Source: Girardinichthys multiradiatus (Eukaryota; Chordata; Actinopteri; Cyprinodontiformes; Goodeidae). From it: a stretch of DNA of 64,000 bases. The DNA lies in contig NC_061808.1 in assembly GCF_021462225.1 (NCBI RefSeq), forward strand, positions 18,513,119 to 18,577,118, written 5' to 3'. Shown here in pieces: positions 9,127 through 54,500 of this stretch (within the stretch, counting starts at the first letter, position 1; each line of letters begins with the position of its first letter). Both the position numbers and the translations under genes were made by a program. The notes beneath the pieces were generated by a model that made no database searches, had not been told where the DNA came from, and saw only the letters and a list, made by a program, of their open reading frames with translations.

Positions 9127-9371
9127 TGGTTTTCTAGAATTACAGTTTCTGGACAAAGATGTTGAGTCACCCTGGACGGCTGAATATTCACAATAAAAAA
9201 AACTCTAGAAAGTTTGAAAATATTTTTGAACAGCTCCTAAAACTAAAACGTCTGACTCTTTAATCTTCATCACCCGCAGTACTATCTTCAACCACTTGAT
9301 GTCCCTCTTCTGTCTCTCCTGCTGTCATCTCCTCTCTCCTGGTCAAGCTCCTGTTAGAGAAGCTGCTCCTC

Positions 9372-9671
9372 GCCGGGTGTGGTGGCTCTCACCTGTAATC
9401 CAAGCTACCTGGAGGCTGAGGCTGGAGGATTGTTTGACCTCAGGAGCTCTGAGCTGCGGTAGGCTGTGCTGATCGGGGGTCCGCACTAAGTTCAGTATAG
9501 ATATGGTGACCCTGGGGGAGCCTGGGACCACCAGGTCTTCTAAGGAGGGGTGAACCGGCCCAGGTCGGAAACGGAGCAGGTCAAATCCCCCGTACCGCTC
9601 AGTAGTGGGATCGCCCCTGTGAATAGATGCTGAAGTTCAGCCTGAGCAACACAGTGAGACCCAGTCTTTTT
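9372..9671 (+). ncRNA. SRP RNA (7SL) gene, copy 3
   Basis: Third full-length 300-nt copy, with all Alu- and S-domain landmarks intact and a T5 terminator at 9667-9671. Substitutions relative to copy 1 include GGTAGGCTGTGCTGATC in the helix-5 strand, CCGCTCAG for CCGCCCAG, and TGCTGAAGTT for TGCTGTAGTT. Copies 1-3 lie head to tail about 2.4-2.5 kb apart and are all transcribed rightward. Confidence 0.92.
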
Positions 9672-11010
9672 ATCCTCGTCACTACACTACTGTCACACCA
9701 ACACTTACAAATTAACATCTAACAGCTGCTTAATCACTCATTTTAGCTTCTTATTTTACTAAAACCTTTATACTGTAGCTGTGATCCTTGTCCAACACCG
9801 CCTCCTACTGGAGGACAACTGACACTACATCAAGTTTTACATCTTCAATGCTTCAAACATTCTGAGACATTTAACTGATAAAACCTGGACAGGTAAACAA
9901 CCACCAACAACACATAGATGAGATCCTTCAGCTGTCCGACTTCAGCCAGAGAAAGTTACGGTTTCAGTGTTCACAGCTTTTCAGTATATCATTCCTGTGA
10001 TTGGACACACACAATGTTTAACATGCCAGTGGGAACTTGTATAACAGAGAACCATCTGAATATTTTTTTACCAGATAAGCAGGAGGGAAATACATTTTTT
10101 TTTATATAAAACAAGAAATATTTGAACAAAGTTTGAAAATTTACAGTGATAATGTGCTACTATATCTGCAGTAAGATATTTTAAATAGGTTCAGTAGAGA
10201 TCCACTATTGGCAGATTGTTTTGAAGCGCTGTAAAGTCCAAATGAGGAAAGACTCTGAATGTTCAGCTAATATAGACCTCCTTTTTTCCTGGCAATATCA
10301 AAACAGAGCTTGAGGTATATAATGATGGTAATACTTACAACACTGATCTTTATTATGAGTGGAACCCTAAGGAATAATCAGGGGAAAAAAATCTTCAAGT
10401 ATCTACTTAATAGGACATATTAAAACAAATATACAAAGTGTTTCAGAAATGAATACAGGCAGGTTAATAATTAAACTAAACAATACAAAGAAGGTTACTG
10501 TAGCAGGAGACTTAAACACAAAACAGCAAAGTAAGTAAGCAAATGTTTAATGGAGCACCCTTCACAGGTTAAGAACCACAAGTGCTTTACAGTAAAATAT
10601 ATTTACATAAAATAAAAATAAAAACACAGCAGATATTAGGGCATGATGATAAAACAGCAACACATAAACATAAAAACATCACACACCTCAAATCTAAAAG
10701 ACGGTCACAATAAACAAATCTTCAGCTGCATCTTCAAGCTCAACAGAATCAAGACAGTATTAAGATGGAGGCACAGCATTCCCCAAGGTGGGGTCTTTAG
10801 CAGTGGTTTAAATCACCCCGGGAAATCTGTTACTCTGACCCTCAGAGGAAGACTGTTCAATACTCTGTTACGGAGAACAGTAACAACATGCCTTTTCTGT
10901 TTTAGATCTAATCTAAGAAAATCCAAGAAGAAACTAATTAGAAGATCTAAGATAAGTGTACAAGATTAAAAGGTAAATTATATGCCCTGAAGATTGATTA
11001 TTTACATTCG

Positions 11011-22100: not shown

Positions 22101-22676
22101 ATGAGCGAGAAACAAGCGCAGGAAGACGCCAAACTAAACCCAGAGGACCTGGAGAACCATGTGAACCTGGAGGCGGGCGACGCTTCCACGCTCCGCGGCG
22201 ATCAGACTCGGGAGGACGGTCACGGGGCGCCGCAGCAGACCCGTCTGTACAAACACCGCTGGTTGATCGTCTTCCTGTTCAGCTCCTATTCGATGTGCAA
22301 CTCGTATCAATGGATCCAGTACGGAATCATCGGGAACATCTTCACGAGGTTCTACGGCGTGGAAGCGTTCACCATAGACTGGCTGTCCATGATCTACATG
22401 CTGACCTACATCCCGCTGATCTTCCCGGTGACCTGGCTGCTGGACAGGAAGGGTCTCCGGGTGATCGCGCTTGTGGGAACGGCGCTCAACTGCACCGGGA
22501 CGTGGATCAAAGTGGTCAGCGTCCGACCCGACCTGTTCCCCGTCACCTTCCTCGGGCAGTTCTGCAGCTCCTTGGCGCAGGTCTTCATCCTGGGGATGCC
22601 TTCAAAAATCGCCTCGGTGTGGTTCGGTTCGGAGGAGGTGTCCACCGCCTGCTCTATCGGAGTATTCGGGAATCAG
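22101..22676 (+). CDS. flvcr2: flvcr2 alternative first coding exon 1a
   Basis: 192 codons. A hydrophilic cytosolic N-terminus of about 50 residues is followed by TM1 (from [18 protein letters not shown]), TM2, TM3, TM4 and the start of TM5. It ends Gly-Asn-Gln in phase 0 at donor GTGATG. It keeps the TM1 Trp (residue 71, in QWIQYG). The exon is strikingly CpG-rich, unlike all other exons here. The start ATG has A at -3. A near-cognate TTG two codons upstream is not needed. This is the canonical FLVCR2 first exon by similarity ([25 protein letters not shown]). Confidence 0.95.
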
Positions 22677-25600
22677 GTGATGCAAATTTGTGCTGGATAA
22701 TAACTGGGTCAAATGAACTTCTCACCTATTTTCTGAATTGGTCTCTTGCTTCAAAGATTTACTGTCAGTTTCTTAATTCGTTTTTATGGCGCACAAGAAC
22801 TGCCATATTCCAAAAATAATCTCTATTTTATCGTGTTATTTTATTTTATTATTGACAATTAGGTATAATGCTTTCAGATCTACAAAATGTTGCATGAATG
22901 GAGCAAGTGGGACCCAAGAACGTTTTCTACTGACCAGATAGGACCCATTAACACTTTTTTGTTAATTCAATTTTTCCAAGTACCAAAAATAATAAAAATG
23001 AAAAATTATATCTTGGCATATGCTTTTGTAGCCTTCTGCAAGTTTTTAGTAAAACTTTATAAATGTGTGACTTAGGTACACGAATAAGAAAGAAAGTTAT
23101 TTGAGGTGAATTGTTACTTTTGCCCCATTTGTTAGTATGGTAATCGTATTGATTAATTAATTTATTTCTGTAATTATTCTTTATTTCGTCTGTTCTGATC
23201 TTCCATACAGTTTAGCACCTTTACACATTTGACATTGTCACTAAGTAGTATTTTACATTTCTCTTTTAAGACGCAATTAAGAAATTAGGAAGAAGTTTCC
23301 TCATCCTTTGATGTTTGATTTTGTTGTTCATGGCTTCATTTGGAGAACCCATCAGGGCTCTGTTACAAACTTTGCTCCAAAACTAGGGCAGCACTCTTCT
23401 TACTGGCATGAAGCAGACATCGACATTACAGATGGCAAAAGTGCAAACTACATATCTACCCAATTTTTCAAAACCATTATTCACATTTACTTTCATAAAC
23501 TTGTTATAAACTTGTATTTCAGGTACCCTGTTCAATGCTGCACAGTGTTTAAAGATCTGCTGGATCCATTATCAAAGACACAACAGTAGAAATAACAGTC
23601 AAAGGTTTCTGTGCAAATAACTCTTGAGTCATCCTATCATGAATTTGACAGTAAGAGACCATGATGGGGATGTTGTAACTGAGAGCAGTAGCTTAATGTG
23701 GGACAGAGTTTCAGTAATGTGATAAAAAGATGTCAAAATGCATAAACAAAAAATAAATAGGAAAGAAGAAAACAAAAACAGATACACAAAGATTGTGAAC
23801 AATACTGGAACAAGTGACTTCATTTTCATTATATCAGAAAGTATTACATGAGTATTTTCTTACAAAAACCTCATAGAAAGTTATTGTTTGCAATCTGCGG
23901 AGAACTGTTGCAAAGACTTTAAAAATCAACTATTTGCAGTAAGTTTCTGTCATTTACATGAATTAGCGTTCACAGGATGAGTTTTTACTTTTATGTTTAA
24001 TTTTTATTCAGAGATTTAGTTGAGGAAGTCTGAGTTGGTAAGAATGGTTCTGGAAGGATTGTAATATCTCAACATCACATGACAGAGCTGAAGGTAATGA
24101 ATATGTGGACATTCTTGTACGATCACATGCATAATGATAGAGGATGGACCTGGAGACACACCACTAGTTATTCCAGAGCACTCGCATCTTCCTGCACAGC
24201 AAGCAGTTTGGAATTGAACTCTGGAATCCTAAGGACGCTCACTCCAAAGATCCAGGCAGGGGCCTGGTTCAGGATGGCTGAAATGCCGCAAAACAATACT
24301 TTGAAAGGAAACCGTGCAAATTCCGAATCTATCATTGATGAATGGCTGCAGTTCAAGGCTGCAAAGAGCCTCGCTCCCGGCCTTGTTTTCCTGCAGGGGA
24401 GTTTGAGGCCCCTTGACAGAAAACTCTCCCCTGGCTCTAGATTGGAAATTGGGGCTTCAGGTGATCAAGCTGAGCTGTTACAAATACCTGAAACCAAGCT
24501 TTACCATCGCCGGTGGGTCATGCTTTTTCTCTTCAGTGCAGTCTCAGCTAACAACGCCTTCATGTGCTTCCAGTATGGCATCATTAGCAACATTTTCATG
24601 CGCTTCTACAATGTGGATTCTCTGGCCATCGACTGGTTGTCTATGATGTACCTGCTCACTTACGTGCCACTTATTCTGCCTGTCCTCTGGCTCCTGGACA
24701 ACAGGGGAATCCGGGATGTGGTCCTTGTAGGGTCAGCCTTTAACTGCATTGGTACCTGGATAAAAATTGGCAGTGCCAGTCCCGACATGTTCCTGTTGAC
24801 ATTTTTTGGACAGTTTGTGTGCTCGGTAGCTACAGTGTTTGTTCTTGGTATACCTTCTTACCTTGCCTCAGTGTGGTTTGGAGAGAATGAGGTTTCAACT
24901 GCTTGTTCCATTGGTGTTCTGGGAAATCAGGTTGGTCTAGAACTTGTCTTAAAAGTTTTACTTAGATTGTGTAGTTTAAAGAGAATAGAAATGATTTCAT
25001 TTGATTGTAAGTCCAAGAAAGGGAAACTAATGTGCATGGTTTGGTGATACTGAAGTCTAATGTTTAAAAGCTTAGCCATTTGTTCACTCATACACTTATT
25101 ACACATGTTTAAGGTAAAAAAAAACTATTTAAAATGTGTGGTTGTGTAAAAGAACTAGGACACAAGCTTAAATATATATTTACATTTCGATCTCAAATTT
25201 CTTTTATTCTTTTTCTCTGAAAAACCAATTGATTTAATTTCAGGTAAATATCGAAAAGTAACTTTGTTTATCTCATTAAACAAAATGTAATAACTAAAAT
25301 ATGCATTATAACTAAGGAAAACATTAGGACACTCTAAAAGCTAGTGATAACCCCTTTAGCTAAAAAAAACATCTTGTATCCGTAACTTCAGCTGTAAGGT
25401 CTTAGATGGGTTTTATAGCATGTACAACCCATTTCAGGCCACCTTGCAGCATGTCAATGGGATTAAGATCTGGGCTTTGACTAGGCCCTGAACCAAAGTG
25501 TCCAGTTCTGCTTCAGCTTGAGTACGTTTTATTACTTGATGTTCTTTATTGATGTTCTCAAGTTTTACTCTACTGTGCCTGCCTATGGTACACAGAATTC

Positions 25601-27543: not shown

Positions 27544-30500
27544 TATTCATGTTCACTATTATCACTCACATGCAGACTTTGCTGAAGTATCTAAAAAGTC
27601 ACATGCAGATGTGACTCAGTGTTCTGGAACAGTCTGTACTGAAATTGTTACTTTGATCTGTATGCAACTGCTTCTGTATCTACTCCCTAGCTGAGAATCT
27701 CTAAATGTCATACACACTCCCTTTTTGTAACTTAAAATGTTTGTTCACTCTTCTGTATAATAAACCCTGATGAGAGTCTGCACCTTGGTAACTTCACACT
27801 GCAGCTGGTGTCAGTTTACCCTCGCAGCGAGAAAAGAAAGAGTCTCTGTCTCACTTCTGTTTGATTGACTGTGGTTTGACCTGATCACTCAATCCACCCT
27901 AACACCAGGCCAGGCAAGAAACATAGTCCCTCCAGTGTGTCCTGGGTCTTCTTCTGGGACTCCTCTCAGTGGGATGTGCCCGGAACACCTCACCTGGGAG
28001 GCGTCCAGGAGGCATCCTAACCAGATGCCAGAGCCACCTCAACTGGCTCCTCTCGACATGGAGAAGTAGCGGCTCTAGTCAGAGTCCCTCCTGGATGACC
28101 GAGCTTCTCACCTTATTTCTAAGGGAGAGCCCAGACGCCCTGCGGAGGAAACTCATTTTGACCGCTTGTATATGTGAACTCGTCCTTTCGGTCACAACCC
28201 AAAGCTCATGACCATAGATGAGGGTAGGAACGTAGATTGACCGGTAAATCAAGAGCTTCTGTTTTTGACTCAGCTCTCTCTTCACCACGACAGACCTGTA
28301 CAGCGCCCACATCACTGCTGACGCAGCACCAATCCATCTATCGATCTCCCGCTCCATTTTTCCCTCAAGATACTTGAACTCCTCGACTTGAGGCAGGACC
28401 TCCCCCTCTAACCGGAGAAGGCAATCTGCCCTTTTCCGGCTCAAGACCATGGCCTCGGACTTGGAGGCATCGATTCTCATCCCAGCAGATTCACACTCGG
28501 CTGCGAAGTGCTCCGGTGAAAGCTGTAGATCACGAGCTGATGAAGCCAATAGGACCACATCATCTGCAAAAAGCAGAGACAAAGTCCTAAGGCCACCAAA
28601 ACAGATCCCCTCAACACCTTGGCTGTGCCTAGAAATTCTGTCCATAAAAGTTATGAATAGAATTGGTGACAAAGGGCAACCTTGGCAGAGTCCAAACCTC
28701 ACCGGAAACGAGTCTGACTTACTGCCGGCAATGCGGATCATGCTCTGGCACCGGTCATACCTGCTACCCCATACTCCCGGAGTACCCCCCACAGGATTCT
28801 CCGAGGGACACGGTCGAACACCTTCTCCAAGTCCACAAAGCACATGTAGACTGGTTGGGCAAACTCCCACGCACCCTCCAGGACCCTGCTGAGGGTGTAG
28901 AGCTGGTCCAGTGTTCCACGACCAGGATAAACCACACTGCTCTTCCTGAATCTGAGGTTCGACTATCCGACAGACCCTCCTCTCCAGAACCCCCGAATAG
29001 ACCTTACAAGGGAGGCTTAAGAGTGTGACTCCCTTATAGTTGGTCTGCCAATCCAGTGGAACTGCCCCCAATGTCTACGCGATGGTGGAGAGTCGCGCTA
29101 ACCAACACAAACCTACAACATCCAGAGCCTTTAGGAACTCCGGGCAAATCTCATTCACCCCAAGGGCCTTACCACAGAGGAGCTTTTTAATCACCTCAGT
29201 GACCTCAGCACCAGGGGTCGGAGAGTCCGCCCCAAGGTCCCCAGGCTCCACTTCCTCAGTGGAAGACGTGCCGGTGGGATTGAGGAGGACTTCAAAGTAC
29301 TCCACCCACCGACCCACAACGTCCTGAGTTGAGGTCAACAGCACACCCTCCCCACTGTAAACAGTGTTGGGCATTCCCAGCAGACCCTCAAGATTCGTTT
29401 GGGTCTGCCAGGTCTGACTGGCATCCTCCCCCACCATCGGACCCAGCTCACCACCAGGTAGTGGTCAGTGGAAAGCTCCGCTCCCCTCTTCACCTGAGTG
29501 TCCAAGACATGAGGCCGCAAATCAGATAACACAACAACAAAGTTGATCATCGAACTGCGGCCTAAGATGTCCTGGTACCAAGAGCACATATGGACACCCT
29601 TATGCTTGAATATGGTGTTAGTTATGGACAATCCATAATGAGCACAGAGCAATTCCAAAGCGAATTGAATACAATTCTTCTTCTTTTTCTTAATGGCGGA
29701 AAGCAAACAACTTCACCAATATACACTGCCACACAGGGGGGTGAGCGTGTGACCAATGTACGGTCCTTAATGCAGGCTGTCCTGGGATCAAATCCTGGCC
29801 TGTTGATGTTTGCTGCATTCCTCTCCACTATTGCAAGTCAACCTACTTAAAAAAAATAAGGGCCTATACTGTCTAAAACAATACCTTTAAAAAATTGGAC
29901 CCTGATCAAAATTCAATTTCTGACAGGGATCCAATCTAATCTGTTGGCTACTCAGAAGGCAGCCATGACAAAAGGGAATTTTTCATAATATAAACCAATT
30001 TGGACCACAATGATGAGGAGTTTTGAATAATAATTTATAGTTGCAAAACATCACTGGTAGCAACCAGTCTGCATAAAAATATGGGTTCAACAAGGTTTTG
30101 CATTATTTGTGGTTAAGAAATGGTCACATTCTCTGGTATCATATCTCATTTAAACATCCACGTCAAGTTTCATAATGAGGTTTGAGCTGTTTGATGTGAT
30201 GTCTTAAGCATGAAAAACTCTTCCACAACCTAAAATAATGCTGACAAAAATAACAAGCATCCATAAATACCCACAACCCCACTTAAGGAAAAAAGCAATA
30301 TCCCCTGTAAAGTTTCACAAAAAGGGCTGCATGGTGGCACAGTTGGTAGCACTGTAGCCTTACAGCAAGAATGTCCTGGGTTCAACTCCTGGCCCAGGGT
30401 CTTTCTGCATAGAGTTGGCATGTTCTCTCTAGGTAGCCCAGCTTCCTCCCACAGTCCAAGGTTAATTAGTCTCTCTGAATTGCCCTTAGACATGAGTGGT

Positions 30501-33500
30501 CGTGTGTCTCTATGTTGCCCTGCAATAAACTGGTGACCCGTCCAGGGAACCTAATTATCTTGGATAAACTTAATTTAATTACTTGTTACCAATTGAAGCA
30601 ATTCGTTTAAGTTGGATCAACTCTTCTCTTTTTACAGTGTGGAGGTCATTTTGCCTATTTCCATCTTGAAATATCACCTGGATCTTGTAATTCCCCTCAG
30701 AGTTTACATGTTGATAACAGTTAGTATTCGGTACTGAATTATCTTGTTACAACAGGGACTTTTATGTTGTTCAAACTAACCGGCAATAAATTAAAGGACA
30801 TTTCAGATTTAATTTGGTTCACTTAGACTGCAATAAGGTGTCACTTGTTTTCATTTTTAAACTAGTTTGTTCTCTTCTGTGTTACTGTGTTCATTTACAC
30901 ACAGCTGGGTTGTGCCATTGGGTTCCTCTTACCCCCGATCCTGGTGCCTAACGTGAACGACATGGATGAGCTGGCCAACCACATCCGAACTATGTTCTAC
31001 ATAACAGCAGGAGTGGCGACATTTCTCTTCATCCTCGTTGTTTTTGGTAAGATAAATCTGGGCATAAAAATAAAGTCTACTCACTACCTTTCTTATCTGA
31101 CTATAAACCTATTAAGTGTTGATCTTTTTCAGATGTATTTAGTAGACAGTTTTTAAAAAATGTAATCTTAATGTAGTTTTGAATGAGTAGAAATTAATGA
31201 GTTTTGAGCCTGTATCAGCTGCAGCCGTTTAAATGTTAATAGCAAATGATGCCCCTAAACCTTGTGAAGATGCTTGATCTGCTATAGTGCATAAAAAAAT
31301 AGCATTTGTTGAAAACAGCTAAGTTTATTTTCCAGGTGAGACTTTAGTTTACTTATTGCTTTGACCGACTTTAAGTCCTACTGGGTTTGGAGAAGTCTGG
31401 AAAAACCTGGAATTAGATTTTAGCGCTTTCCAGGTATGGGTTCATATTCTTATGGCCTTCTGTCACAAAAAAACATTCTTCTTGCTGCTCTTCCATAATG
31501 CTGACAACAGATTATCTCACTTAAGCAATGGATCTCTGCAGCTCCTCCAAAGTTGGCAAGAGTGTCTTGGCTGCTTCTCTTTCTATTTTCAGACTGTGGG
31601 CTGAACAGTGCTGTAATGGGTCAAAACCTTGGAATATTGTTTTGTAACACCTGTCTGGTGTGTTCCTTGGTCTTCATGATGCTGCTCTTTCTGTGACAAA
31701 CCTGTGGGGCTTTTGCAGAACAATGTTTATACTGAGATTAAATAACGCAAAGTATTTACTAATTAGGTGACTTCTGAAGGCAATTGGTTGCACTGGGCTG
31801 AAGAGGTATGCACACCACTTTTACATTTTCATTTGTGAAAGCTTAAAAAAATATAATTTTCTTTTAACTTTAGAGTTATGGACTACTTTGTGTTGGTTTG
31901 GGACATACAATCACTATAAAATGCATTGACGTTTTGGGTTGTAGGTCACAAGATCGGAAAAAGTTCAACAGGTATGAGCGTGTCATACGACATTTCATTT
32001 AGATACAACAAAACAATGAAGATGAAAACGGAAATTGTCAGTGATGGACTCAAGTTCATTGGAAAAATGACTGCTGGTCCCCCTTCATGTCATTTTTTTT
32101 TCCAACAGAGCTCAGACCTTTAGTGTGGGTCATATTGTGTGGGTCTCTTCTTGTCCTGGCTAATGGGGGTTCTTTAGTCAGCAAATCTTTGCAGTGATGG
32201 TTTTAATTTCCACACTCTGACTGAAAGCACTATTCAAGAAACGGGAAAAAACTGATGACGTGTGTGCGCACTGGGAGATTCACATAAACGAGCATTGTAG
32301 TATTAGTCCAGTCAGGAGAAATGTCCTGGCTGAAATGCCTGGACAAAAATCAACAGTATTATTTTGTCACAGCCGGGTTTGTTACTGATGCATCAGAAAC
32401 AAAGAACCTATGGCCACAGGAGGATTCAGCACATTGTCGTAAAAGGGAAGTGGTGCGACTTGTGATGATGTACAGGATGCGTGATGTTTTGAAAAGTGCT
32501 AACATGTAGTGATCTTTGAATTTCTGTGGACCGTGCATTTTCTCTCCCTTAACTTCCTACTTTAACATTTTCATCCAGAAAAATTGTTTGTGCAGCAGAG
32601 GAAAATGGTGCATGAGAATACCGCTGTCTTCTTTGAGAAGAGAGAGGGTGGGGGCGCTCGTAAGCACTTCAGCATTCCTTAAAACAAAAGGATGTTTGTA
32701 AAGGCATTTACATGTAGTACCATGCACAACATTTAGAATAACCTCTGTGTCAGTGCGACTTTGTGTTGTGTGATAGTCTCTTGTGAATAACTGCAAACTT
32801 CAGCTAATTTCTACATGTGACCAGCTGAATGTGGTGTTGAGTACATTTTCTGATCTGACAACTTTAAATGTGTGGCTACAATTATTTAGTTTTTGATACA
32901 GTAACATAGTTAAACATCTTTTTTTTTAATCCAAATTCATCTTACGGTATCATATGTTAACAGTTTTTTAAAAGAGAATTTGATAAAAAACTAAAATTGA
33001 AAAACTGTCTGCAAAACGTTTTTAGCAGAGTACAATTTTTGCCAGAGATAATATTACAATTATTCACTATTTATTTGTTTAATACTGTTTGTCTTTATTT
33101 CTTGGCTCAACACCATATAATACTAAAGTAACTGTGTAATGTTAAGCCCTTGCCTTCTTGAAATCAGGTCACATTTTCGTGGCTTAACTTTTTAATGACA
33201 GAAATGTTGCATACCAGTGCACTAAGCTGGAGAAACATAGCTTAGTTTTGCATTAGGACTGGGTAATATGCAAATCGTTACCATATTTCAAATGAAAAAG
33301 CAATTTCAGAAATGCTTTTTCATTTTAAGAATGTGGCTGCATTGTTTGTCTCATAAATGAAATTATTAATCAATCATCCTATTTGCATTTTAATTTTCTC
33401 CTTCAAGACTGCTCATTCTTTCACTTAATTAAAATGAAAAAGAAAAAGACATTTGAGATTTATTTTTCAAAATGTACCCCAGCAAATAGATACCAAAATT

Positions 33501-36500: not shown

Positions 36501-39500
36501 GCCCATCTAGCACAAGTACAGGTCCTTCTCAAAAAATTAGCATATTGTGATAAAGTTCATTATTTTCTATAATGTAATGATGAAAATTTAACATTCACAT
36601 ATTTTAGATTCATTGCACACTAACTGAAATATTTCAGGTCTTTTATTGTCTTAATATGGATGATTTTGGCATACAGCTCATGAAAACCCAAATTCCTATC
36701 TCACAAAATTAGCATATTTCATCCGACCAATAAAAGAAAAGTGTTTTTAATACAAAAAACGTCAACCTTCAAATAATCATGTACAGTTATGCACTCAATA
36801 CTTGGTCGGGAATCCTTTTGCAGAAATGACTGCTTCAATGCGGCGTGGCATGGAGGCAATCAGCCTGTGGCACTGCTGAGGTCTTATGGAGGCCCAGGAT
36901 GCCTCGATAGCGGCCTTTAGCTCATCCAGAGTGTTGGGTCTTGAGTCTCTCAACGTTCTCTTCACAATATCCCACAGATTCTCTATGGGGTTCAGGTCAG
37001 GAGAGTTGGCAGGCCAATTGAGCACAGTGATACCATGGTCAGTAAACCATTTACCAGTGGTTTTGGCACTGTGAGCAGGTGCCAGGTCGTGCTGAAAAAT
37101 GAAATCTTCATCTCCATAAAGCTTTTCAGCAGATGGAAGCATGAAGTGCTCCAAAATCTCCTGATAGCTAGCTGCATTGACCCTGCCCTTGATAAAACAC
37201 AGTGGACCAACACCAGCAGCTGACACGGCACCCCAGACCATCACTGACTGTGGATACTTGACACTGGACTTCTGGCATTTTGGCATTTCCTTCTCCCCAG
37301 TCTTCCTCCAGACTCTGGCACCTTGATTTCCGAATGACATGCAGAATTTGCTTTCATCCGAAAAAAGTACTTTGGACCACTGAGCAACAGTCCAGTGCTG
37401 CTTCTCTGTAGCCCAGGACTGGGGAATGCGGCACCTGTAGCCCATTTCCTGCACACGCCTGTGCACGGTGGCTCTGGATGTTTCTACTCCAGACTCAGTC
37501 CACTGCTTCCGCAGGTCCCCCAAGGTCTGGAATCGGCCCTTCTCCACAATCTTCCTCAGGGTCCGGTCACCTCTTCTCATTGTGCAGCGTTTTCTGCCAC
37601 ACTTTTTCCTTCCCACAGACTTCCCACTGAGGTGCCTTGATACAGCACTCTGGGAACAGCCTATTCGTTCAGAAATGTCTTTCTGTGTCTTACCCTCTTG
37701 CTTGAGGGTATCAATAGTGGCCTTCTGGACAGCAGTCAGGTCGGCAGTCTTACCCATGATTGGGGTTTTGAGTGATGAACCAGGCTGGGCGTTTTAAAGG
37801 CCTCAGGAATCTTTTACAGGTGTTTAGAGTTAACTCGTTGATTCAGATGATTAGGTTCATAGCTCGTTTAGAGACCCTTTTAATGATATGCTAATTTTGT
37901 GAGATAGGAATTTTGGGTTTTCATGAGCTGTATGCCAAAATCATCCGTATTAAGACAATAAAAGACCTGAAATATTTCAGTTAGTGTGCAATGAATCTAA
38001 AATATATGAATGTTAAATTTTCATCATGACATTATGGAAAATAATTAACTTTATCACAATATGCTAATTTTTTGAGAAGGACCTGTATTGGGCCAAGGGA
38101 ATGCCATGATATGGTAGCCCAAACCATCACTGGTCCACCCACATGCTTCACTCTGGGCATGCAACAGTCTGGGTGGTATGCTTCTTTGGGGGTTCTCCAC
38201 ACCGTAACTCTCCTGGATGTGGGGAAAACAGTAAAGGTGGACTCATCAGAGATACATGTTTCACATTGTCCACAGCCCAAGATTTGCGCTCCTTGCACCA
38301 TTGAAACCGACGTTTGGCATTGGCATGAGTGACCAAAGGTTTGGCTATAGCAGCCTGGCCGTGTATATTGACCCTGTGGAGCTCCCGACGGACAGTTCTG
38401 GTGCAAACAGGAGAGTTGAGGTGCACATTTAATTCTGCCGTGATTTGGGCAGCCGTGGTTTTATGTTATTTGGATACAATCCGGGTTAGCACCCGAACAT
38501 CCCTTTCAGACAGCTTCCTCTTGCGTCCACAGTTAATCCTGTTGGATGTGGTTCGTCCTTCTTGGTGATATGCTGACATTACCCTGGATACCGTGGCTCT
38601 TGATACATCACAAAGACTTGCTGTCTTGGTCACAGATGCGCCAGCAAGACGTGCACCAACAATTTGTCCTCTTTTGAACTCTGGTATGTCACCCATAATG
38701 TTGTGTGCATTTCAATATTTTGAGCAAAACTGTGCTCTTACCCTGCTAATTGAACCTTCACACTCTGCTCTTACTGGTGCAATGTGCAATCAATGAAGAC
38801 TGGCTACCAGGCTGGCCCAATTTAGCCATGAAACCTCCCACACTAAAATGACAAGTGTTTCAGTTTCATTGTCCAACCCCTGTATATCCTTCATTCTTTC
38901 AGTATATTTCACTATTTCTGACTTATAATGTTGTATTTCCTTCATTAATTTAAATCATGATACATGTTTTTAAGCAACATATGGATCCGTTCATTACTTT
39001 AGAGGTGATTTTATTCCACTTCATTTCATCATATAACACATATACACACAACACATTCACGCGTCAATGCAAAATGCCATGTGTGAGGGCTGTCCTGCTG
39101 GGAGGACCATCTGTAGCCCAGCAACAGTCCTGTGAGTCAGCAGGGCAGACAAAGTCCTGCGAATGAGACATTTGCATGAACTGTGTGCAGAGAGGTGAGA
39201 GAACAAATTTGGCAGCCACACTAGTTTGTCAAAAGACATTGACCAAACATGTGTGCAAAAATTAACAACTTGCTTTACAAAAAGTTCTTTTTTGTAAATT
39301 TCGTTATTTCTTTTCCGATTTTCTACAAAACCTAGAGATTGGAAATTGGTCACAAAAATCTAATTGATGGCATCTCTACCTGGAAGATTCCTACTCACTA
39401 TTTTTACTGTGTTCACTGGTTACGAAGGCCTTTGAGAGAAAATGCTGACCAAAAAACACACAAACACACATCTGACTTTTTCCAGTCCACACCAAATACT

Positions 39501-42500
39501 GAACGTTAGTAAGAGAATAATGCATTATGCAAAGGTGTTTGAGGGGGTCTTTATTGAAAACAGTGGGTGACATAATCACAAATGATGAGGGATGCACCCA
39601 TTTGAACATTTGAGCCGATAATGATATTTATGGTATGAATATATCATATCATATCAATGATATGATATTTATGTTATGGCCGATAACCAATCGTTTCCCT
39701 ACCTTTTTCAACACCAGGACACAAATGGCAACAAGATGGACATAAACATCAGATGTTAATATCAACCCAGTTTTGCTTATGGGACCAATACCAACACGTT
39801 AAAAAAATGACTAACATCAGCTGATACTGGTTTATAGTTGATTTCTTAATGTATTTCTTTAGATGGTCCCATGATGTTACACAAGAAACCAGGTTGTTGA
39901 GGTAGTGCCCTAAAATTAATCCACATGTGTGCCTTCATTTAAGAGATGGTAATCTTAGTGTGAACTTCTAACACTGAAGAAAGTAATAAAAACACCAACT
40001 GACCTAAAATAGGAAACATTGAATGTAATTTATTTTTAGACAGTGAAAAAATTGTCCTTTTATAAAGGGGTTCATGTTACACTTTTAAAATGTGTCTGTA
40101 AATATTTTAATTTTACTGTACCTTACCTCTTTTTTTTATCTCCATACATATCAGTTTTCCAGGAGCGCCCGAAGCTTCCTCCAACGCAGGCGCAGGCCAC
40201 AGCTCGCAGAATCCCACCAGAAGAGTACTCCTATACAGCCTCCATCCTCAGGCTGCTTCGAAACAAACCCTTTGTCCTCCTCATCATATCTTATGGTCAG
40301 TCAAAATGCTTTAATCTAGTTAATATAATTAGGGCTAGTAATAAATTCTGTGATATAGTGGATTTAATATTTATAATTGGTTATTGATTTTAGAATTTTA
40401 GAAACATCAAACTATGTTTATATCCTTGTTGGATTAGCATTGACATCAATACAGTAAAGGATTTACAGGAAAGCCCCAAGACACTTTCTTTATCGTCTAA
40501 CAAGGTACATCTTATCACTTAGCCGTGCATGTATGCATACACGCAACTATTATGTTTTTTTGAATACCTACTGAGATCATAGTGAACTCTCCCTGAATTG
40601 GTGGAAAGTTTGCTCATCTGCCAATGTTTAACTACTAGGTTGCATCAGTGTGACTGAAAGATCAAATGATAAGTCCATATTTTAATTCCTGGAGTTCCAA
40701 GAAGAAATCAGTTACTTACACATTGAGTGAATAATTATAAAATCACTTGGGTTCTTCCACTTCTGTGTAACAACTATAAACAGTCAAAATAATGTTTTTT
40801 GGTGGTTTGACCTTCTCCATTTAATGTCATATGACACACTAACTGGATAAGAGTTTAGAGCATCAGCTGTCATTGGTTGTCAGTCTCTGTCCTTTTGTCT
40901 TTATACAAATGAAGCTTTGGGTCAAAGTTCACTGGACTCAGCCACCTTTACCTGTCTCTGTCAATATACTGAGCTCATGTTGATGTTCCTTAGTGTTAGG
41001 TTGGATTCAAGAAACTCATTCAGTCTGAAATATCCACAAATCCTTATTTTTATTACTATAAATTGTTCTTCAAAAATACAGTAAATAGTTTAGTATTCGA
41101 GGGCAACAATTCAATGCATTAAATAGTTTTTACATAAATACAGGAAAAAACTGGAAATGCATACTTAACATTAGTACATTTATTTATTTATCAATAATTA
41201 TAAACATGTTTAAATAATTTATTTAATACAAATAATGACTAGAAATTAAATATGAAAAAAAATGTATTAACTTTTCTATTTATTATATTTTTAAAAGCAT
41301 AAACAATTATTTAAGTATTACTCGTACTCATCGTCTTTTGCTTCATCCGGGACCGGGTCGCAGGGGCAGCAGACTCAGCAGAGACGCCCAGACGTCCCTC
41401 TCCCTAGAAACCTCCTCCAGCTCCTCCATGGGGAGCCAAAGGCGTTCCCAGGCCAGCCAAGAAACATAGTCCCTCCAGCGTGTCCTGGGCCGACCCCTAG
41501 GCCTCCTCCCGGTGGGATGTGCCTGGAACATCCGGTATAGATGCCACCTAAACTGGCTCCTCTCGATGTGGAGGAGCAGCAGCTCTACTCTGAGCTCCTC
41601 CTGGATGGCCGAGGTCCTCACTCTAAGGGAGTGCCCTGCCACCCTATGGAGGAAGCTCATTTCAGCCGCTTGTATCCGGGATCTTGTTCTTTCGGTCATG
41701 ACCCAAAGTTCATGGGCATAGGTGATGGTAGGAACGTAGACCGACCGGTAAATCGAGAGTTTCGCTTTTTGGCTCAGCTCTTTTCACCACAACGGACTGG
41801 CACAAGCCCCCTCCACCCCCCCCCCCCCCCCCCCCCCCCCATTACTGCGGCAGCCGCAATGATCCGTCTGTTGATTTCCCGCTCCATTCTTCTCTCATTC
41901 GTGAACAAGACCCCGAGATACTTAAACTCCTCCACTTGAGGCAGGAACTCCCCTCCAACCTAAGGAGGACAAGCCACCCTTTTCTGGTCGAGAATCATGG
42001 CCTTGGCCTTGGAGGAGCTGATCTTCATTCCAGCTGCTTCACACTCGGCTGCGAACCACCACAGAGCATGCTGTAGGTCTTGGCTAGAGGGGAGCAGCAG
42101 GACCATGTTATCCGCAAAAAGAAGAGACGAAATCCACTGGTCCCCAAACCAGACCCTTGGCTGCGCCTAGAAATCCTGTCCATTAACGTTATGAACAGGA
42201 CTGGTGACAAAGGGCAGCCCTGCTGGAGTCCAACATGCACCGGGAACAGGTCCGACTTAGTGCCGGCAATGCGGATCAAACTCCTGCTCCGCTTGTACAG
42301 AGACCGGATGGCCCCTAATAAAGGGCCCGCGACTCCGTACTCCTGGAGCACCCCCCACAGGGCACCACAGAGGAGCTTTCTCCAGGTCCACAAAACACAT
42401 GTTGACCGGTTGGGCAAACTCCCATGAACCCTCGAATACCCTGCAGAGGGTGTAGAGCTGGTCCAGTTTTCCACGGCTGGGAATGAAACCACACTGCTCC

Positions 42501-45500: not shown

Positions 45501-48500
45501 GCAGACAGTCCTGGGCATATTGTACCTTGGATCTAAGGAGACTGAGAAAGAGCCACTCAAAAGTCTTCATTAGATGTGAAGTGAGTGCCACCGCTCGGAA
45601 GTCATTCATCTCACTGGACCGGTTCTTTTTGGGATCTGGAACTATGCATGATGTCTTTCATACTGTGGGCACTCTTCCCTGCTGCAGGGTGAGGTTGAAA
45701 ATATGCTGGAGTGGTTCACCAAATTCTGCCACACATTTCTTCAGTAATTAGGGGAAAACTTGTCAGGGTCTTCTGCTTTCCTGGGGTGAAGCTTCCTCAG
45801 TTTACCCCTAACCTGGGGTTGGTGGCGGATGAGGGAGGTTGCTGCAAGACCTGAGGGGAGGTGTTTTGAGATGTCTGACTACCCAAAGTACAGTTTTTGA
45901 TAAATGGGTTAAAGAATTTGATATAATTGTTTCTCTTGACAGGTCTGAACGTGGGTTGCTATTATGCTATCGGAACTCTGCTTAACCGCATGATCATCGA
46001 TCAATACCCTGTAAGTTGAAAATTAATTTGCAAATATCTCTGACTCGGACATTGTTTTTTTTAATATGCACTAATCAATCAGTCCAATCATGGGAAATGA
46101 ACAATTTTCCCCTGAATGGCTCTGACAAGTTTGTCAGCTTATCAAATACTGAAAAATCAGATTTTGTTCTGTTTGCTAAATGCATCAAAACTGAAAACTC
46201 ACATTTTTGGTATTTATTTAATTGGGATTCCACATGCTAGACCAACACAAAGCTGTGCATAATTGTACAATGGAAATAAAATCAAACATGGTTTTTAATT
46301 TTTTTGCCAAGAATAATATGACAGTGTAGCTTTCATATGTGTTCAACCACTTGCATTCTTATAAGCAGGGTTTCCAAGTAGTTTTATTATATATTTGTTC
46401 TGTTCATTTTCCAAGTGTTGATAAGTATGGAAAAACGTGAGAACTAAGTGTCCAAAAAGTTCAGAAAAGTACAGAATTGATAACTCATGTTGTTATCTAA
46501 TAGATAAAAAGCATAATTTCTTGGTAAAATAAAGGGCTTTTTTCATTGATTTGTATTTAGATGATGACATCTATTTTTGGTTTGCAACATCACGACTTGG
46601 AGTTTTGTCCATCTTATTGATCAGTTTGGTTTTTAAATTACTGACAGATAAATACACCTTTGTTTACTGTATAAAACTCTATTTCAAAACCTTTTTCACA
46701 TATAGATCCTTTTACTTTTAAATTTTAAACTGGAAAGTAGGTTGTTGAAAGGGGTTTGGTTTGGATGTCACAGAAAGTATTGATGTTCCTTGTACTTGGT
46801 GAAAGGTGTATTTTTGTGAGTGGAAGGTACTGATTACAAGCTGATGGATCAGTGTTTAATCTAAGTAAGGATTTTAACTGATCTAACTTTGCCCAGATGT
46901 GGACAAAAAGCAAAATGGACATTTGCCACCATCGTGAATTGGAAGCCAGCTTTAAGCATTTTGTTTATCATGATTTGTGTGGAAAAAACAAAAACAGGGA
47001 AATGTTTTACTCAAATGTCAATACTGTCATAAAAGCCATGTATCCTTTCCGTCCACTTCACAATTATGCACTATTTCGTGTTTTTCTGTCGCATAAAATC
47101 CCTGGTTGTTCTTTGACTAAGGAAGGCACTGTACAGCTTATGTCACGATTCTCTGGTGTTATGTTTTGATTTTTATCTATGTTCATTTTGGTCAATTTAT
47201 TGTTGGGTACTGTTCTCAGTTTGTTCTTTTATGTGTTTTATCCTGTTTTCCTTTAGTGTTGATGTACATGTTTGCATTATTTCTCTGTTAGATATGCTTC
47301 CTTGTGTCTCTTTCTCTGCTCTCATTTGCTCATTACTCTTCTTTCCCTCAGCTTTCATTTGTCTCAGCTGTTTCTCATACTCACCTGATTACTCACACCT
47401 GCATTCTGTCATGTCTCCATTCTTCAGGATTTAGGCTCACCTGTTGCATTTGCTTCCTGTTGTATTTTCCTGTTACTCTCACAGTTTTCGTGTCATTCTC
47501 TACTGCCTGTGTTCCTTGTCCTGTTTCCTCGAGCTTCTTGTAAGTTTCTCATTTTTATTTAATAAATCATGCTCAATAAAAGCTCCAGCCTGCGCCTGGG
47601 TCCTCCACCTCCCCCAGTGACAACTTATTTCCGTTAATTAACAGTCTTTTTGCAGCCTGTTAAGACCTTGCGCTCACTTCATCTTGCCGTGTTGCGTGTT
47701 TGTTTGATATGACAGGGCGAAGAGGTGAATGCTGGAAGGATTGGGCTCACCATTGTCATTGCAGGGATGGTCGGTTCCCTCATCTGTGGAGTTTGGCTCG
47801 ACAGAACTAAGACATATAAGTAAGTGAACGTGAGGGAAGCAGATCCTCAGAAAAAAGTAAAAATCGTGTATAAGGAGAGATACAATTATCTGTCACATGC
47901 AGCCAAATTTCTAAGATTGAGATTTTAGAAGTTCATAATCCAAAATCAGAGACCGAGTTTTCATTTTTCCCCTAAGCATATATACAAGCTGTTTTGCTCT
48001 TGTTGTCTCTTTCCTTTTTGTTTCTTCTTTAGTGTTTATCTGTTGGCTGTTTGGTCTGTGGGGCTGTTTAATCAGGTGCAGCATGCTGTTACAACAGTGA
48101 CCCCTCTGATCTTCCTCATGGGTTCTCAGGCTGTGTACTGATGCTCATTATCCTCAGCTATTTTATTTACAAGAGTTGTGTAGTGCAAATGGGGTAATGC
48201 AGAAAGATTATTTCCCCTGATTAAAAAAAAAAAACTGCTACAGCACAATAAGATTTTGCTTTTTAGTACAGTGGGAAAAGTTTAACAGATTTGCTTTTCA
48301 TATTCAATTAATTCAGCTCTTGCTGCAGGGATTTGTTGGCTTTAGCTTTTGACAAACAAACACCACTTTTCAATGTGGTTTAAGCACCCTGGCGCTGCAA
48401 CAGTGGGCAAAGCTCACCTTTCTTGTACAGAAATCATCCGTAAAGGCTAACTGTAAGGCCCTGAAACATATCTAAAACCTACCGGACCAAAGAAACATTG

Positions 48501-51500
48501 ACGTTGATTTTAGCAGTCAGTGAGACAGTCGCCAGCTCCCTGTCAGTCCTGCTGTATGGGCTGACTATAGCAGTCAAATATAAAACAATAAATCATGTGA
48601 AAAAGTTACACTTTTCAGTTACTGTGATACAACTCACCGTAGCTTGGATATTAGAAAACCACGGCATCACATTATGGTGCAGAAGGCCTCTGGCTGGTCA
48701 GTGTTTGCTCTGCATTAAATGTTTGCTCTGTAAAATGTCATTTAATTTTTGAGAAACGTGAAGCTCAAAACTTTATTCAGACATTTTGAATTTCTCACAT
48801 TTTATGTGTTTTTTGTTTTTTTTACAGACAAACTACTCTCGCGGTGTACATCATGACTCTTGTGGGGATGATCGTATACGCTGCAACACTCAAGCAGGGA
48901 AAACTCTGGGTGGTGTTTATCACTGCTGGATCACTTGGGTATTCTTATTTCTAACTAAACTTGTTTAAATTGTAAAAATAGTGACTTGAAACATTTGGTG
49001 TATGGGTTGTTAAGACGCCTAGTTGCATAAATTAATACCTGCATAAAATGGCCCTACTTCAGTCTAGGGCTGCTCAGGCATCTATTCCATTTAAAGGACA
49101 GTCTTAAATGTGATATTTTCTCTGATACCTTCGTGTTGAACCTTCACTTCACAACTAAGTATTTATTTTTTCAGATGTAGGGTATGAGAGTTAAGCCCAG
49201 AATTATTCATACACCTTTCAGATTTACATTTGAAGTTATTTTCATTTAACCAAAAACTGTTGTTTTGTTAGAAATGAGACAATGATTTGTTAGAAGATAA
49301 TAAAACGTAAAAGGAGGGTCAGTTCAAAAAAAGAATTGTTTTCATTCCCTTTTCATTAAAAAGGTGCATATCAAGAAAATATTTATATCCTTTTCGATAA
49401 TCAGTGGAAAAAAACTATTGACATAACAGCAATCATACCTGACATATAGCAGCTTTTTCCATGTATCCATTGTTGGTTTTTTTTGGTGAAATTATCTTTG
49501 GTTGGAAAGTCTCATTGCCATCACCCTAATATTTAGCTCCTTCAACAGATCTGAACCACCCTAAAATGTTACAGCAATATTACTTTCAATCAGAAGAAAC
49601 ATGTTGGTGAAATAAAAAAATAACTTTAAATCTGCCAGAAGGTGTATATTGACAACAAAACACAAGCAAAAAAAGCCATATAGTTTACTTCAATAATCTC
49701 AAAGATTACCCACTGCAAGTGAATTACAAAATATATTAAAATATAGAAATAATAACATCATACAATAAACAAATCATAAATAAGAAAAAAGAAAATGACA
49801 ACTGCCATGAGAAATAATTAAAAAAAGACCGTGTTGTTTCTCCCAAAGAAATTTACTCACATTTTAGTAGAGCTACTGCAGGATCTTATACATTCATTAA
49901 TTTTGACAAAATATATTGAAGAAATCCCTTTGACTTCTTGTATTAGTTGCTAGAAAGTCATCGAGTTGTACTGGTAGTTTGTGTCTTTTCATTTTTGGTT
50001 GTTCTGTGCTCTAGATTTCCCTTTATAAATTATTCCGTCCAACATGGGACATTTCAAACAACTTTCAAACTATTCAACTTAAACATTTTTTTTACTATTT
50101 TGTATAATTATGTGGACATTCTATCTAAAGTGTAAAGACATTATACCAAACCAAACATATATTGTTCTTAATATTTGCTGCCTACAAAAAAGAACTGATA
50201 TAATTTGTAAAACAAAAGAAAAAACAAATGCAATTTTTTCATCTGCTGCTATAATTTCTCATAATCAAACCATATTCATCAGCAAAGAAAAAAATCTGTG
50301 TAAATACAGCATACAGTGATTAGTTTTAATTTATTTTGCATTAGAGAACTGCCTGAATGACCTTTACTTAATGTCAGTTCTGTGGAAGGAAAGCTACTTC
50401 TTGCAGTTGCTTTATAAAAGTATCTGATGCGAGGACATTGCTGTTAGATGCAACATTTCCACTGCTATAAAGCAATAGAAAGATCACAGTTCATTCAGTA
50501 GGTACAAAGTTTTCCTCCACATGTAAAGTGTTTCGAAAAACTATGCAATGAGCCTGTAGATGTAATACTGAGACTGTATAAAACTAATATTATCAGTTTA
50601 ATAAATCAGACTGCAGCTCAACAAAATACTTTCTGTTATCTGTGTATGTTTGTTGCTCCAGGTTCTTCATGACAGGCTACCTGCCTCTGGGTTTTGAATT
50701 TGCAGCTGAACTGACGTACCCGGAATCGGAGGGAACTTCCTCGGGATTGCTGAACTGTTCAGCACAGGTAAAGCTGAGACTCCTGCAAGCCTACAATAAT
50801 GCAATAATAAGAAAATAGTGACAGGAATAGGAGAAATAAATACATTTAAGAGTAGCAGTTTGCAGAAACCTTTTAATGCATTTTTGGTTAAGTGATCCAA
50901 GTAGATCTATCTTCATGTTTTGTGGTTACTGTGAGGGTGTTTGTGAGTGCATGCAAGCACCTGCCTTATTCCTAACTGAGGATGTTCTGCACACATAGGT
51001 GTTTGGCATCCTATTCACCATCTGCCAGGGGAAAATCTTTGACAAGTTTAACACGTTGGCGGGAAACATCTTCCTTTGTGTATTTCTGCTGGTAGGCTCA
51101 ATAATGACAGGTATGACATTTCTAACTATATAATACAAGATTGGAGTCATTTCCAGTAATTGTTTTCTAATCATTCATAACAAGGTGTGCAACACTGATC
51201 TTTGCCTTTCCAAACCTCTGTTACTGTTTTACTAACACCTCTGTGGATGGTGGTACATTCCAAGAATGTTGCTCTTTGCTTCTGTGTAATTTGAGGCTGT
51301 AAAAGGTTACATTTCAGCAAACAAATAAATTATTTTATAGCATGATGTCTGCTTTGTTTTGCTGTAAAATTTTATATGCAAAGACACCGGTTTAATCCTC
51401 AAGGATTAGAGAATAAAAGGAATAATTTATTTTCATACTACACAGGTCAGTCATTTTACACAAACAAAACATTTTTTTTAAATATCAGGAGCACTGCTAA

Positions 51501-54500
51501 ACAGATATTGTATGCTTGGTAACTAAGCCCAGTGCTGGAAAAGAAAATAGGGAAATCTATAGAAAAATGAACATATGCAGAAAAACGTGCAAAAATATGC
51601 AGATTTTTTTTTGTTTTTGTAAAATAAATGCCATTGAAAAATTACAATTTATCAGCTACTTTTAATGTCTAATAATTATTTATGCAGCTGCTGTGCAGCT
51701 ATATACACATTAGCAGTGTGTTTTCAGTCATTAAAGGTGACTGACCTGCCTCAGTCAATACAAAACCACTAAAGTGTTTTTGCACGGCCAATCGAGAGTT
51801 TTATGAGCAATGTGTAACTTTTAACAATACGCATTATGCGCTGAGGCGATAAACCTAGTGCTCGCTAGAAAAACATGAATCTGTGATGAGACTTCATGCT
51901 TTCAAAGGTCAGGAGACTGACTCATTTATTTACTCGGCATTCAGAATATCAATAACTTGTTTTTGATATAATCGTTTTAAAGGAAAATGACTTTGTAAAA
52001 AACAAAAAGCTTGCAGTTGATTTGTTTTCCTTGTGCAATGTATTGTTATTCATTTTCTCTTCTTGGAAAATAAACATTTCTGTTAAGCTTTTTATACCTG
52101 CAGAAGACCTATATGGCCTGCAGAAGATATGGCTTCTCTGCGTAGGTTTTTACTGTTTCTCTGTTTCTGCACAGTCTTTAAAATATACAGCCTGTTACAA
52201 CATATTATGGGGCACCAGTTAAGACTGTAATGTTTCATCTTTTATGCACCACCCACAATTGCATATTGTTGCTGTCACTACCATCATTTAGGTTTTTATA
52301 AAGTGTAACATTTTTTGCTTTTTTCTATAATGTGAGAATTTTATTGCGTCTCATGATCTTGTGTTGGCTCTGCATGTTTCTTTGTTGTTGCAGGCTTAAT
52401 TAAGTCTGATCTACGGAGACAAAATGCAAACAGACTGGCCAAAGAAGAGGTAAGTGTTGAAGCAAGGTAAGGGGGTGGTGCTTGTGTAGTTTGCTCGTGG
52501 TAGTCAAGGAAAATAGATAATGGGAATATTAAGGGGAAATGGCTTAATAATGAGAGAGGTCACCATAAAAAACATGAGTGTTAAATTATTTATTAGAGAT
52601 TATATATATACTGTATATGCCTTTAGCAGAGTTAAAAGTGTTTTCTTATAACAATTGTCATTAGTGTGACAAGTCAGAAGTATTTTGTGCATCCTTGTCA
52701 CATGTTTGCTTTTAGGGCACGGAGTGACATTTGTACCTCATGGTGCTCCAGGAAATACCCAACGATGTTCATATGTTTATTTTTGTGTCATATGTATTTT
52801 GCACACAGGTGTACTTAAACACAACATCATTGTCATCAGCAGAATTGAGGCCTGGAAAAGAATACAATTACAAGCAGATGTGTGATAAACAAGTCTTAGC
52901 TAACATACACTGCCCGTCCAAAACAAAGAAACGGTGATATTTTTTGATGGACCATCTTTGTGGCTGATGGCAGCACACAAGGTGGTGTCATTATTTTCAA
53001 AGTGTTTACAGTGTGAAAGGTTGCCGAAGGTATTCCCATCCAAAGATGCATTTGTTTTCCAAGATCTTACTTTAAAGGTCAACTTCAAAAACTAAGAATG
53101 TTTCCTGATCCACAAATTTGCAATTTCAGCCCAATAAATCCTCAGATTCATAGGGGCATGGTCATTTAAATCATGTCACCAGAGTGTTTCTCAAGTTTTC
53201 ATGGATAGTGTTTGCAAGTTGTTCTGTTGTGCACAAACATCTGTGAAGGGATCATGGTGGTTTAATATGGATACATATCTTAGTCCTCAGTCTAGTTGCA
53301 GCAGTGGTATCTTATTAATGATGTTGGTCCTGCGAACTCAGGTGGCTTAGTCTTCAGATAATTTGATGCAAAACTGGCCATGCTGGTCTCATGCCAAGGC
53401 TGCAACCTGGTATCTATCTAAATAATTTATTGGACCACTTTTGGCGGCAACATAACTTTGTGTTTCCACCTCGATGCAACAAAAAGAAGTACAAAAATCC
53501 ACACTCAGTGACCTGAAGAGGCCTCTTTCACATAGAGATAAGGGTTCGCCTGTTTAAAAGGCTCCCAGTTGGGGAGTAGCACACACACACCTCCAAATTG
53601 TACATAGACTGATTGTGGAGATCAAAAGAAGTTATTAATTGTTCAGGCAATTTATAAACAATCTATGTCACTCTTTCAAGGAGAATCAGTCACATCATAT
53701 ATGTGGAGGAAGAAGAATGGGAACTAGAAGTCATAGAGTTTATGATGCAATTATACAATGCGAGGCACTCTGTGCGAAAAGCCCCTTTACCTGAATCCTC
53801 TTGTGCTGTTGAGAATAGTAATAATAATAATAATATAATGATACCAATAACATCAGCATATTTTATGTATAGGTTTTATGTACAGTCAATGTCAGAAAGG
53901 ATAAAAGGATCATAGTATAAAATAAAATGGAGAAAGCAGCAGACAACATGCTAGTGTTTGACCCTTCCCAGCTTGGCTGTAACTGATGGTGGAGGTGCAG
54001 AAACCTCCTATATTTAGAGGGATATTACTTTTTGTGAGAGGATGCTCTGGTGGTGATGTGAAACTCTTGTTGTTAGCGTTCTGATAAGATATGCAGGAAA
54101 GCATTAGGAACAACCTACAGTGTTTGTAGAGTACTAATAGCAGACTAGCGCCATGATTGCCTTCACACTAAAATAAGGTTTTCCAAATTTGCCCGTATCT
54201 AGAGACATTTAAAAAGGTTGTGAAGTCCTGGTGACACTGGTTATCTTAGTCCAGTGTGAAGGTGGCCATAAGGAATTAAAAGTTGGTCAGAGTGAAATTA
54301 AGGTGAAAACTCAATAATTACTGGAGCACTCTTCAAAAAGGAGCCTCTTGCTTTGGTAAATTCAGATGGGAATTGTTTTTCTTTATTTGGCCTGGCAGTG
54401 CATGTTTGTCTACATCTGCAATCAATCTAGATACCACTGCTCTTGTGATTCACCCTGTTCTTGAACTGTTCACTCATCATGTTTTTCTAATTCTGGATGG

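Follow-up and report, generated by a model that had tools for sequence, protein, structure and literature searches.

A probable pair of alternative first coding exons in fish flvcr2b, with a predicted change in the choline pocket

Introduction

The substrates of the FLVCR family are still argued, heme being the older claim. FLVCR2 has lately been described as a carrier of choline and ethanolamine (PMC11168923), and the pocket of the human protein is formed by Ser99, Trp102, Gln191, Asn222, Ile226, Phe324, Tyr325 and Gln447 (PMC13160678). In human FLVCR2, the exchange Q191A abolishes the transport of both choline and ethanolamine, and W102A significantly reduces choline transport (PMC11168923). 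Isoforms are also described within the family, as FLVCR1b is a shorter isoform of FLVCR1 (PMC10998817). Outside the family, the UGT1 cluster consists of tandem first exons, each encoding an N-terminal substrate-recognition part, followed by a set of common exons (PMC1885805), and first exons of this type possess a promoter each (PMC3325998).

Here, we analyse a stretch of 64 kb from the genome of Girardinichthys multiradiatus (contig NC_061808.1), referred to as the window throughout, for which an earlier note had proposed two diverged first coding exons feeding one flvcr2 carrier body. Among the literature matches listed for FLVCR2, fish and first exons, a set with subscription papers mostly outside it, there was no description of an flvcr2 exon pair.

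Results

One carrier gene with two first coding exons

On its plus strand, the window contains a single FLVCR2 gene with two first coding exons and one shared body. Exon 1a (22101..22676) encodes the cytosolic N-terminus, TM1-TM4 and the start of TM5, and exon 1b, the alternative first coding exon (24274..24930), encodes the same half-module. Both have exactly the extent that the earlier note had given them, both start with ATG and are open, and both end with GGN AAT CAG directly followed by the donor GT, i.e. with the Gly-Asn-Gln in phase 0 that had been read there before. Several other fish proteins begin at the second Met of 1b (MPQNN... or alike; 24283) and not at MAEMPQNN.

The shared body opens with exon 2 (30905..31046), whose acceptor at 30905 reads ...cacacag and which starts in phase 0, the matching phase that had been claimed, and ends in phase 1. 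It continues on the same strand with exons 3 (40155..40295), 4 (45943..46010), 5 (47716..47819), 6 (48828..48938), 7 (50662..50767), 8 (50999..51110), 9 (52394..52449) and 10 (57259..57324), the last of which includes the stop codon and was placed via the tail of the database isoform X2 (P0004). Splicing of these exons to 1a gives an isoform a of 493 aa, and splicing to 1b an isoform b of 520 aa. A tblastn search of the complete window, on either strand, with the shared half and the two modules as queries returned one downstream set and two first-exon modules, with no second set of exons 2-10 and no third module, all other matches having E values of at least 0.024. The single downstream set of the earlier note therefore stands for the window, but its numbering as exons 2-9 has to be corrected to nine exons, 2-10, with the stop codon ending at 57324.

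The window also harbours repeats and mobile elements. At 3224-10868, repeat units of about 2.4-2.5 kb are arranged in tandem. They include four copies of a 300-base stretch (at 3224, 5692, 8199 and 10569; identity to the first copy 97-98%), which are separated by CATC arrays. All three mobile-element traces lie in introns of the carrier gene on the minus strand: a reverse transcriptase fragment in intron 1 (28079-29074; Pfam RVT_1), an uninterrupted Tc1/mariner-like transposase frame of 332 aa in intron 2 (36795-37793; Pfam DDE_3) and a second reverse transcriptase fragment in intron 3 (42025-42540; Pfam RVT_1, below the Pfam cut-off).

Promoter and splice signals

The CpG observed/expected ratio is 0.97 for exon 1a, as in an unmethylated promoter region, and 0.38 for exon 1b, unlike such a region, which fits different promoters for the two exons. 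Two TATA-like matches were found upstream of 1a and none upstream of 1b (23774-24290). The AG adjoining the ATG of 1b is a poor acceptor (pyrimidine tract 0.41), and given that better acceptor-like sites are located at 24012, at 24200 and, inside 1b, at 24397, 1b may be preceded by a non-coding exon, or minor splice forms may occur. Mutually exclusive internal exons would each have an acceptor as well as a donor; here, both exons start with ATG, and the acceptor candidates for 1b are the sites just given. If each exon has its own promoter, neither of them needs an acceptor, and we lean towards promoter choice between 1a and 1b. The site at 24397 (cctgcag) is a strong acceptor-like site in phase 0 with the donor of exon 1a, and several fish proteins read LQW at this position.

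Both first exons in other fish

For the comparison with other species, we used the best 120 of 381 protein matches to exon 1b, the best 120 of 784 to exon 1a and the best 120 of 470 to the 1b module of gar. Besides the window's own two proteins, the matches listed comprise 257 proteins with 137 modules of the 1a type and 128 of the 1b type, and from these numbers no lack of 1b can be deduced for paddlefish, carps, catfish or tetrapods. Each module was assigned to the class of the closer of the two window modules by identity, no module having its two identities within 6 points. The two window translations and the two spliced window products are left out of the final counts, and P0004, which is identical to the window, is kept.

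The translation of 1b together with exons 2-10 corresponds letter for letter to the database protein isoform X2 (P0004) of Girardinichthys multiradiatus, a goodeid. Isoform names such as X1 and X2 may denote computed models. In 11 comparisons of a 1b with a 1a isoform, hand-picked from the listed matches and covering 10 species, the shared halves were identical end to end in four (Mastacembelus 301/301, Cyclopterus 308/308, Hypomesus 304/304, Pygocentrus 302/302), and the first modules of these same pairs agree at just 85-91 of 147 positions. In four further pairs (Clinocottus, Epinephelus, Anguilla and Oryzias X6/X2), the shared halves are identical over the first 262-284 residues and then diverge, and the Odontesthes pair has 269 of 269 aligned residues in common, with a gap. 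Less alike are the shared halves of Antennarius (284/298) and Oryzias X10/X2 (229/287). Three controls, each comparing different flvcr2 genes of one species, gave 225/304, 237/301 and 236/301.

Both exons with one shared half hence recur in many fish, and the simplest model put forward there, a first-exon choice that swaps the first third of the carrier, is supported by the identity with isoform X2 and by the shared C-terminal halves. The recurrence also bears on the assembly. A single set of exons 2-10 in this window would also be seen if a second full gene had collapsed and its exons 2-10 were missing; however, proteins of many other fish have this order and this shared half too, so that such an artefact has next to no probability.

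Among the matches listed for exons 1b and 1a, 27 entries derive from short contigs (<18 kb), 15 of which carry a first exon only and 12 a shared half as well (nine with 1a, three with 1b). Contigs of 1.7-4.3 kb that hold a full carrier frame must have lost the introns, and therefore we infer that they are very likely transcripts. The three contigs with 1b spliced to a shared half, which make up all of the transcript-like evidence for 1b, are of the flvcr2a type and none is flvcr2b. The ratio of nine to three spliced contigs may reflect a wider use of 1a.

Seven of the 257 proteins among the matches listed, one of them from the gar Atractosteus (P0013), are single models that contain a 1a module, a 1b module and one shared half in the order of the window. 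Taken literally, they would make 1b an internal exon of a long protein beginning with 1a, in which a linker connects the two modules, and the in-frame site at 24397 would suit such a splice. However, the linkers begin at different points, as if predictors had forced two first exons together, and we therefore read these models as gene predictions joining two alternative first exons. Since the half of TM5 at the end of 1a would moreover stay without its other half, an internal exon is very unlikely.

Assignment to flvcr2b

For both exon 1a and exon 1b, the best match among solved structures is FLVCR2. Isoform b scores 637 bits against human FLVCR2 (8qcx) versus 590 against FLVCR1 (8ubw), with similarity over the whole chain, and 108.8 bits for the Pfam family MFS_1 (cut-off 33.4). 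Exon 1a alone reaches 225-233 bits with FLVCR2 chains versus 197 with FLVCR1. As a sorter of proteins into flvcr2a and flvcr2b, the C-terminal half left 109 of 235 proteins undecided and was dropped, and a tree of 1b modules was used instead. In this quick tree of 129 rows, all ten rows named flvcr2b and none of the 26 named flvcr2a fall into one branch (42 rows, support 98), and the flvcr2a rows form no single branch. By this tree, the window gene is classified as flvcr2b (SLC49A2, choline/ethanolamine carrier family).

Residues of the choline pocket

Residue numbers follow human FLVCR2, and pocket positions were taken from the alignment to solved chains; an AlphaFold2 model of isoform b (52 sequences) had a mean pLDDT of 49 and was left out of the pocket analysis. 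The first four pocket residues (99, 102, 191 and 222) are encoded by exon 1. Window exon 1a keeps all of them (Ser99, Trp102, Gln191, Asn222), together with Gln101, and the shared exons keep Tyr325 and Gln447 and exchange Phe324 for Tyr and Ile226 for Cys. In the alignment, isoform a consequently combines Trp102, Gln191, Tyr325 and Gln447, the choline pocket. Exon 1b reads Ala99, Met101, Cys102, Thr191 and Asn222 in the window, i.e. isoform b has Cys and Thr where the choline pocket has Trp102 and Gln191. On the basis of these residues, we place isoform b in the FLVCR2 family as a pocket variant and not as a choline carrier.

Among the matches listed, residue 191 is Gln in 136 of 137 1a modules, with Met in the remaining one. 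At the same position, the 128 1b modules listed have Thr (115), Ala (5), Ser (4), Met (3) or Asn (1), and Gln in no case. Residue 101 follows the same division among these matches, with Gln in 136 of 137 1a modules (one gap) versus Met in 123 of 128 1b modules. The 1b module of gar has Met101, Trp102 and Thr191. The exchange of Ser99 for Ala means little, since Ala99 is also normal in mouse. Loss of Trp102, an idea for a hallmark of 1b that came from the window alone, was dropped, as 123 of the 128 1b modules among the matches listed keep this residue.

Twelve of 147 columns are class-specific (at least 85%); one of them belongs to the pocket, and two others adjoin Trp102. A single pocket residue in twelve such columns is no statistical enrichment, so that the argument depends on what is known of Gln191; it leans on the human mutant Q191A, whereas Thr is the usual residue in 1b. 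On these grounds, an altered choline/ethanolamine transport by isoform b appears likely. A protein that has lost a Gln essential for transport in human FLVCR2 and has kept its similarity over the whole chain might also transport nothing itself and serve isoform a or FLVCR1 as a regulatory or dominant-negative partner. However, the retention of Thr191 (115/128) and Trp102 (123/128) among the matches listed is more in line with a functional pocket than with an empty one, and FLVCRs are described as uniporters (PMC11168923). A regulatory partner is thus improbable, and a transporter with a changed pocket is the reading that we follow.

Age of the exon pair

In a tree of 76 modules, the 1b modules form one clade (support 100/100; stem branch length 0.41) with gar at its base. 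The 1a module of gar is incomplete and has no TM1. Above gar, this clade contains the flvcr2b branch (99/95) and a second branch holding the flvcr2a rows (92/82). The 1a and 1b modules of fish cluster to the exclusion of human and mouse FLVCR2, but the support is weak and the alternative is not rejected (AU p 0.376), so that the duplication may also predate the split from tetrapods. A teleost-only origin was rejected, as uniting all teleost modules without gar and paddlefish, a group named after the tree had been seen, costs 48.6 log units (AU p 0.014). From the position of gar and the AU result, the duplication most likely predates the divergence of gar and teleosts and has most likely passed through the teleost genome duplication.

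As to its origin, exon 1b could have been left over when a tandem duplicate gene lost its 3' exons, and then have been captured by the neighbouring gene, which would change the history of the pair and leave its present working the same. The location of 1b between 1a and the shared body, where remains of a lost or nested duplicate might be located, and the long 1b stem branch are in line with such an event, but the window contains no relic of a second set of exons 2-10, although relics are not expected after such a time. We regard capture from a tandem duplicate as possible but rather unlikely, and continue with a duplicated first exon.

A protein model from Larimichthys (P0012) has two tandem modules of the 1a type without a shared half, which are sisters in the tree (100/95), and the second of them has Met191 and Ser222. 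In croakers, further first exons may have been added to the array.

Constraint and loss of Trp102

The membrane parts of the window exons 1a and 1b are identical at 91 of 147 positions (62%) without a gap, in agreement with the 60% or so estimated in the earlier note. A codon-level comparison, made for the two window exons, with other fish compared as proteins, gave a pN of 0.22 and a pS of 0.80 (saturated), with 95 of 158 differences at third positions. Because of this excess at third positions and the low pN relative to pS, both exons are considered to be held as protein-coding, and the view that the duplication is neither fresh nor dead is upheld.

Between eight hand-picked percomorph sequences each, mean identities in flvcr2a are 91.1% for 1a and 91.2% for 1b, and those in flvcr2b 92.1% and 85.8%. 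When both flvcr2a modules came from one species (three pairs), the values were 90.4-91.1% for 1a and 88.4-95.2% for 1b, and nine hand-picked species with both flvcr2b modules (36 pairs) gave means of 91% for 1a and 79% for 1b. A division of labour in which flvcr2b would rely on 1a and flvcr2a on 1b is hence only half right: both exons are equally conserved in flvcr2a, and 1b evolves faster in flvcr2b. Among the matches listed, 1b has lost Trp102 solely in the flvcr2b branch, in four species, where it is replaced by Cys (Girardinichthys multiradiatus), Gly (Oryzias latipes) or Arg (Eucyclogobius and Gasterosteus). Counted by row of the same matches, these are 6 of 42 in the flvcr2b branch, with the window sequence and the medaka gene each represented twice, versus 0 of 87 others. 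Taken together, the faster evolution and the Trp102 losses point to a weaker or changing constraint on 1b of flvcr2b.

Such a pattern raises the question of decay, i.e. of an exon 1b in the window that is open but rarely or never used and has lost Trp102 by drift. The lower conservation of 1b than of 1a in flvcr2b, the restriction of Cys102 to Girardinichthys multiradiatus among the matches listed and the Arg or Gly of three other fish of the flvcr2b branch would all agree with it. However, 1b is open across 219 codons, its membrane part is still 92% identical to that of Poeciliopsis, 90% to Xiphophorus, 86% to Cyprinodon and 79% to Nothobranchius, and the 1b module of the goodeid Xenoophorus is 99% identical to that of the window and keeps Trp102. 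A decaying exon is quite improbable in view of these values; nevertheless, in Girardinichthys multiradiatus 1b may be heading towards another function or towards loss.

Discussion

Our analysis makes it quite probable that flvcr2b has two alternative first exons of old duplication, one for an ordinary carrier (isoform a) and one for a carrier with an altered pocket (isoform b). According to this proposal, either first exon, equipped with a start codon and a phase-0 donor, would be joined to the same exons 2-10, most likely from a promoter of its own as in the UGT1 cluster. The first exon would have been duplicated, alone or with more of the gene, before the gar-teleost split, and flvcr2a and flvcr2b would both have inherited the pair through the teleost genome duplication. 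With the exon-1 pocket of human FLVCR2, isoform a is expected to be an ordinary choline/ethanolamine carrier. Isoform b, with Thr191 and Met101 next to the shared Tyr325 and Gln447, would show little or no transport of choline and ethanolamine and probably keeps another function, e.g. another substrate, presumably for more than 300 million years. It counts against the proposal that the database isoforms may be computed models.

Whether isoform b has a different substrate or is a silent or regulatory protein is, in our estimate, about an even call, in which the different substrate holds one half. The most far-reaching version of the proposal is correspondingly tentative, and we put it slightly below even: that ray-finned fish possess, through exon 1b, a second, non-choline FLVCR2 carrier per flvcr2 gene, made by a half-pocket swap and retained in both genome-duplicate copies since before the gar-teleost split, with Trp102 changed in single lineages, that of the window among them.

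A natural and old pair of isoforms, in which half of the pocket differs and half is shared, represents a ready-made experiment on the residues that determine the substrate. The pair further suggests that choosing between first exons can endow a carrier with a second specificity, without a second gene, and that transporter gene counts in fish miss hidden paralogues of this kind. Already known are the isoforms as public database entries; new are the old pair, its occurrence in both flvcr2 genes and the change of Gln191.

Compared with known systems, the teleost flvcr2a and flvcr2b database isoforms (X1, X2 etc.) are the same kinds of product as described here, but their names are silent on the exon pair, its age and the pocket change. 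FLVCR1a and FLVCR1b likewise are two isoforms of one FLVCR gene; FLVCR1b differs in being a shorter isoform, and the accessible text of PMC10998817 names no replacement module. With FLVCR2/SLC49A2 of human and mouse (PDB 8qcx, 8qcy, 9qu4, 8vzn), the fish gene has the whole carrier body and the MFS family in common, and isoform a has the same exon-1 pocket residues. The aligned human and mouse chains are 1a-like (Gln101, Trp102, Gln191), whereas exon 1b of the window replaces the pocket residues 99, 102 and 191. Finally, the locus shares with the UGT1 cluster the arrangement of tandem homologous first exons for an N-terminal recognition part before one common exon set, with matching phases. UGT1 has about a dozen first exons and encodes a sugar transferase, whereas flvcr2 has two and encodes a membrane carrier; each UGT1 first exon has its own promoter, and the same may hold for the flvcr2 exons; unlike in UGT1, the pocket of flvcr2 is built from both halves of the protein.
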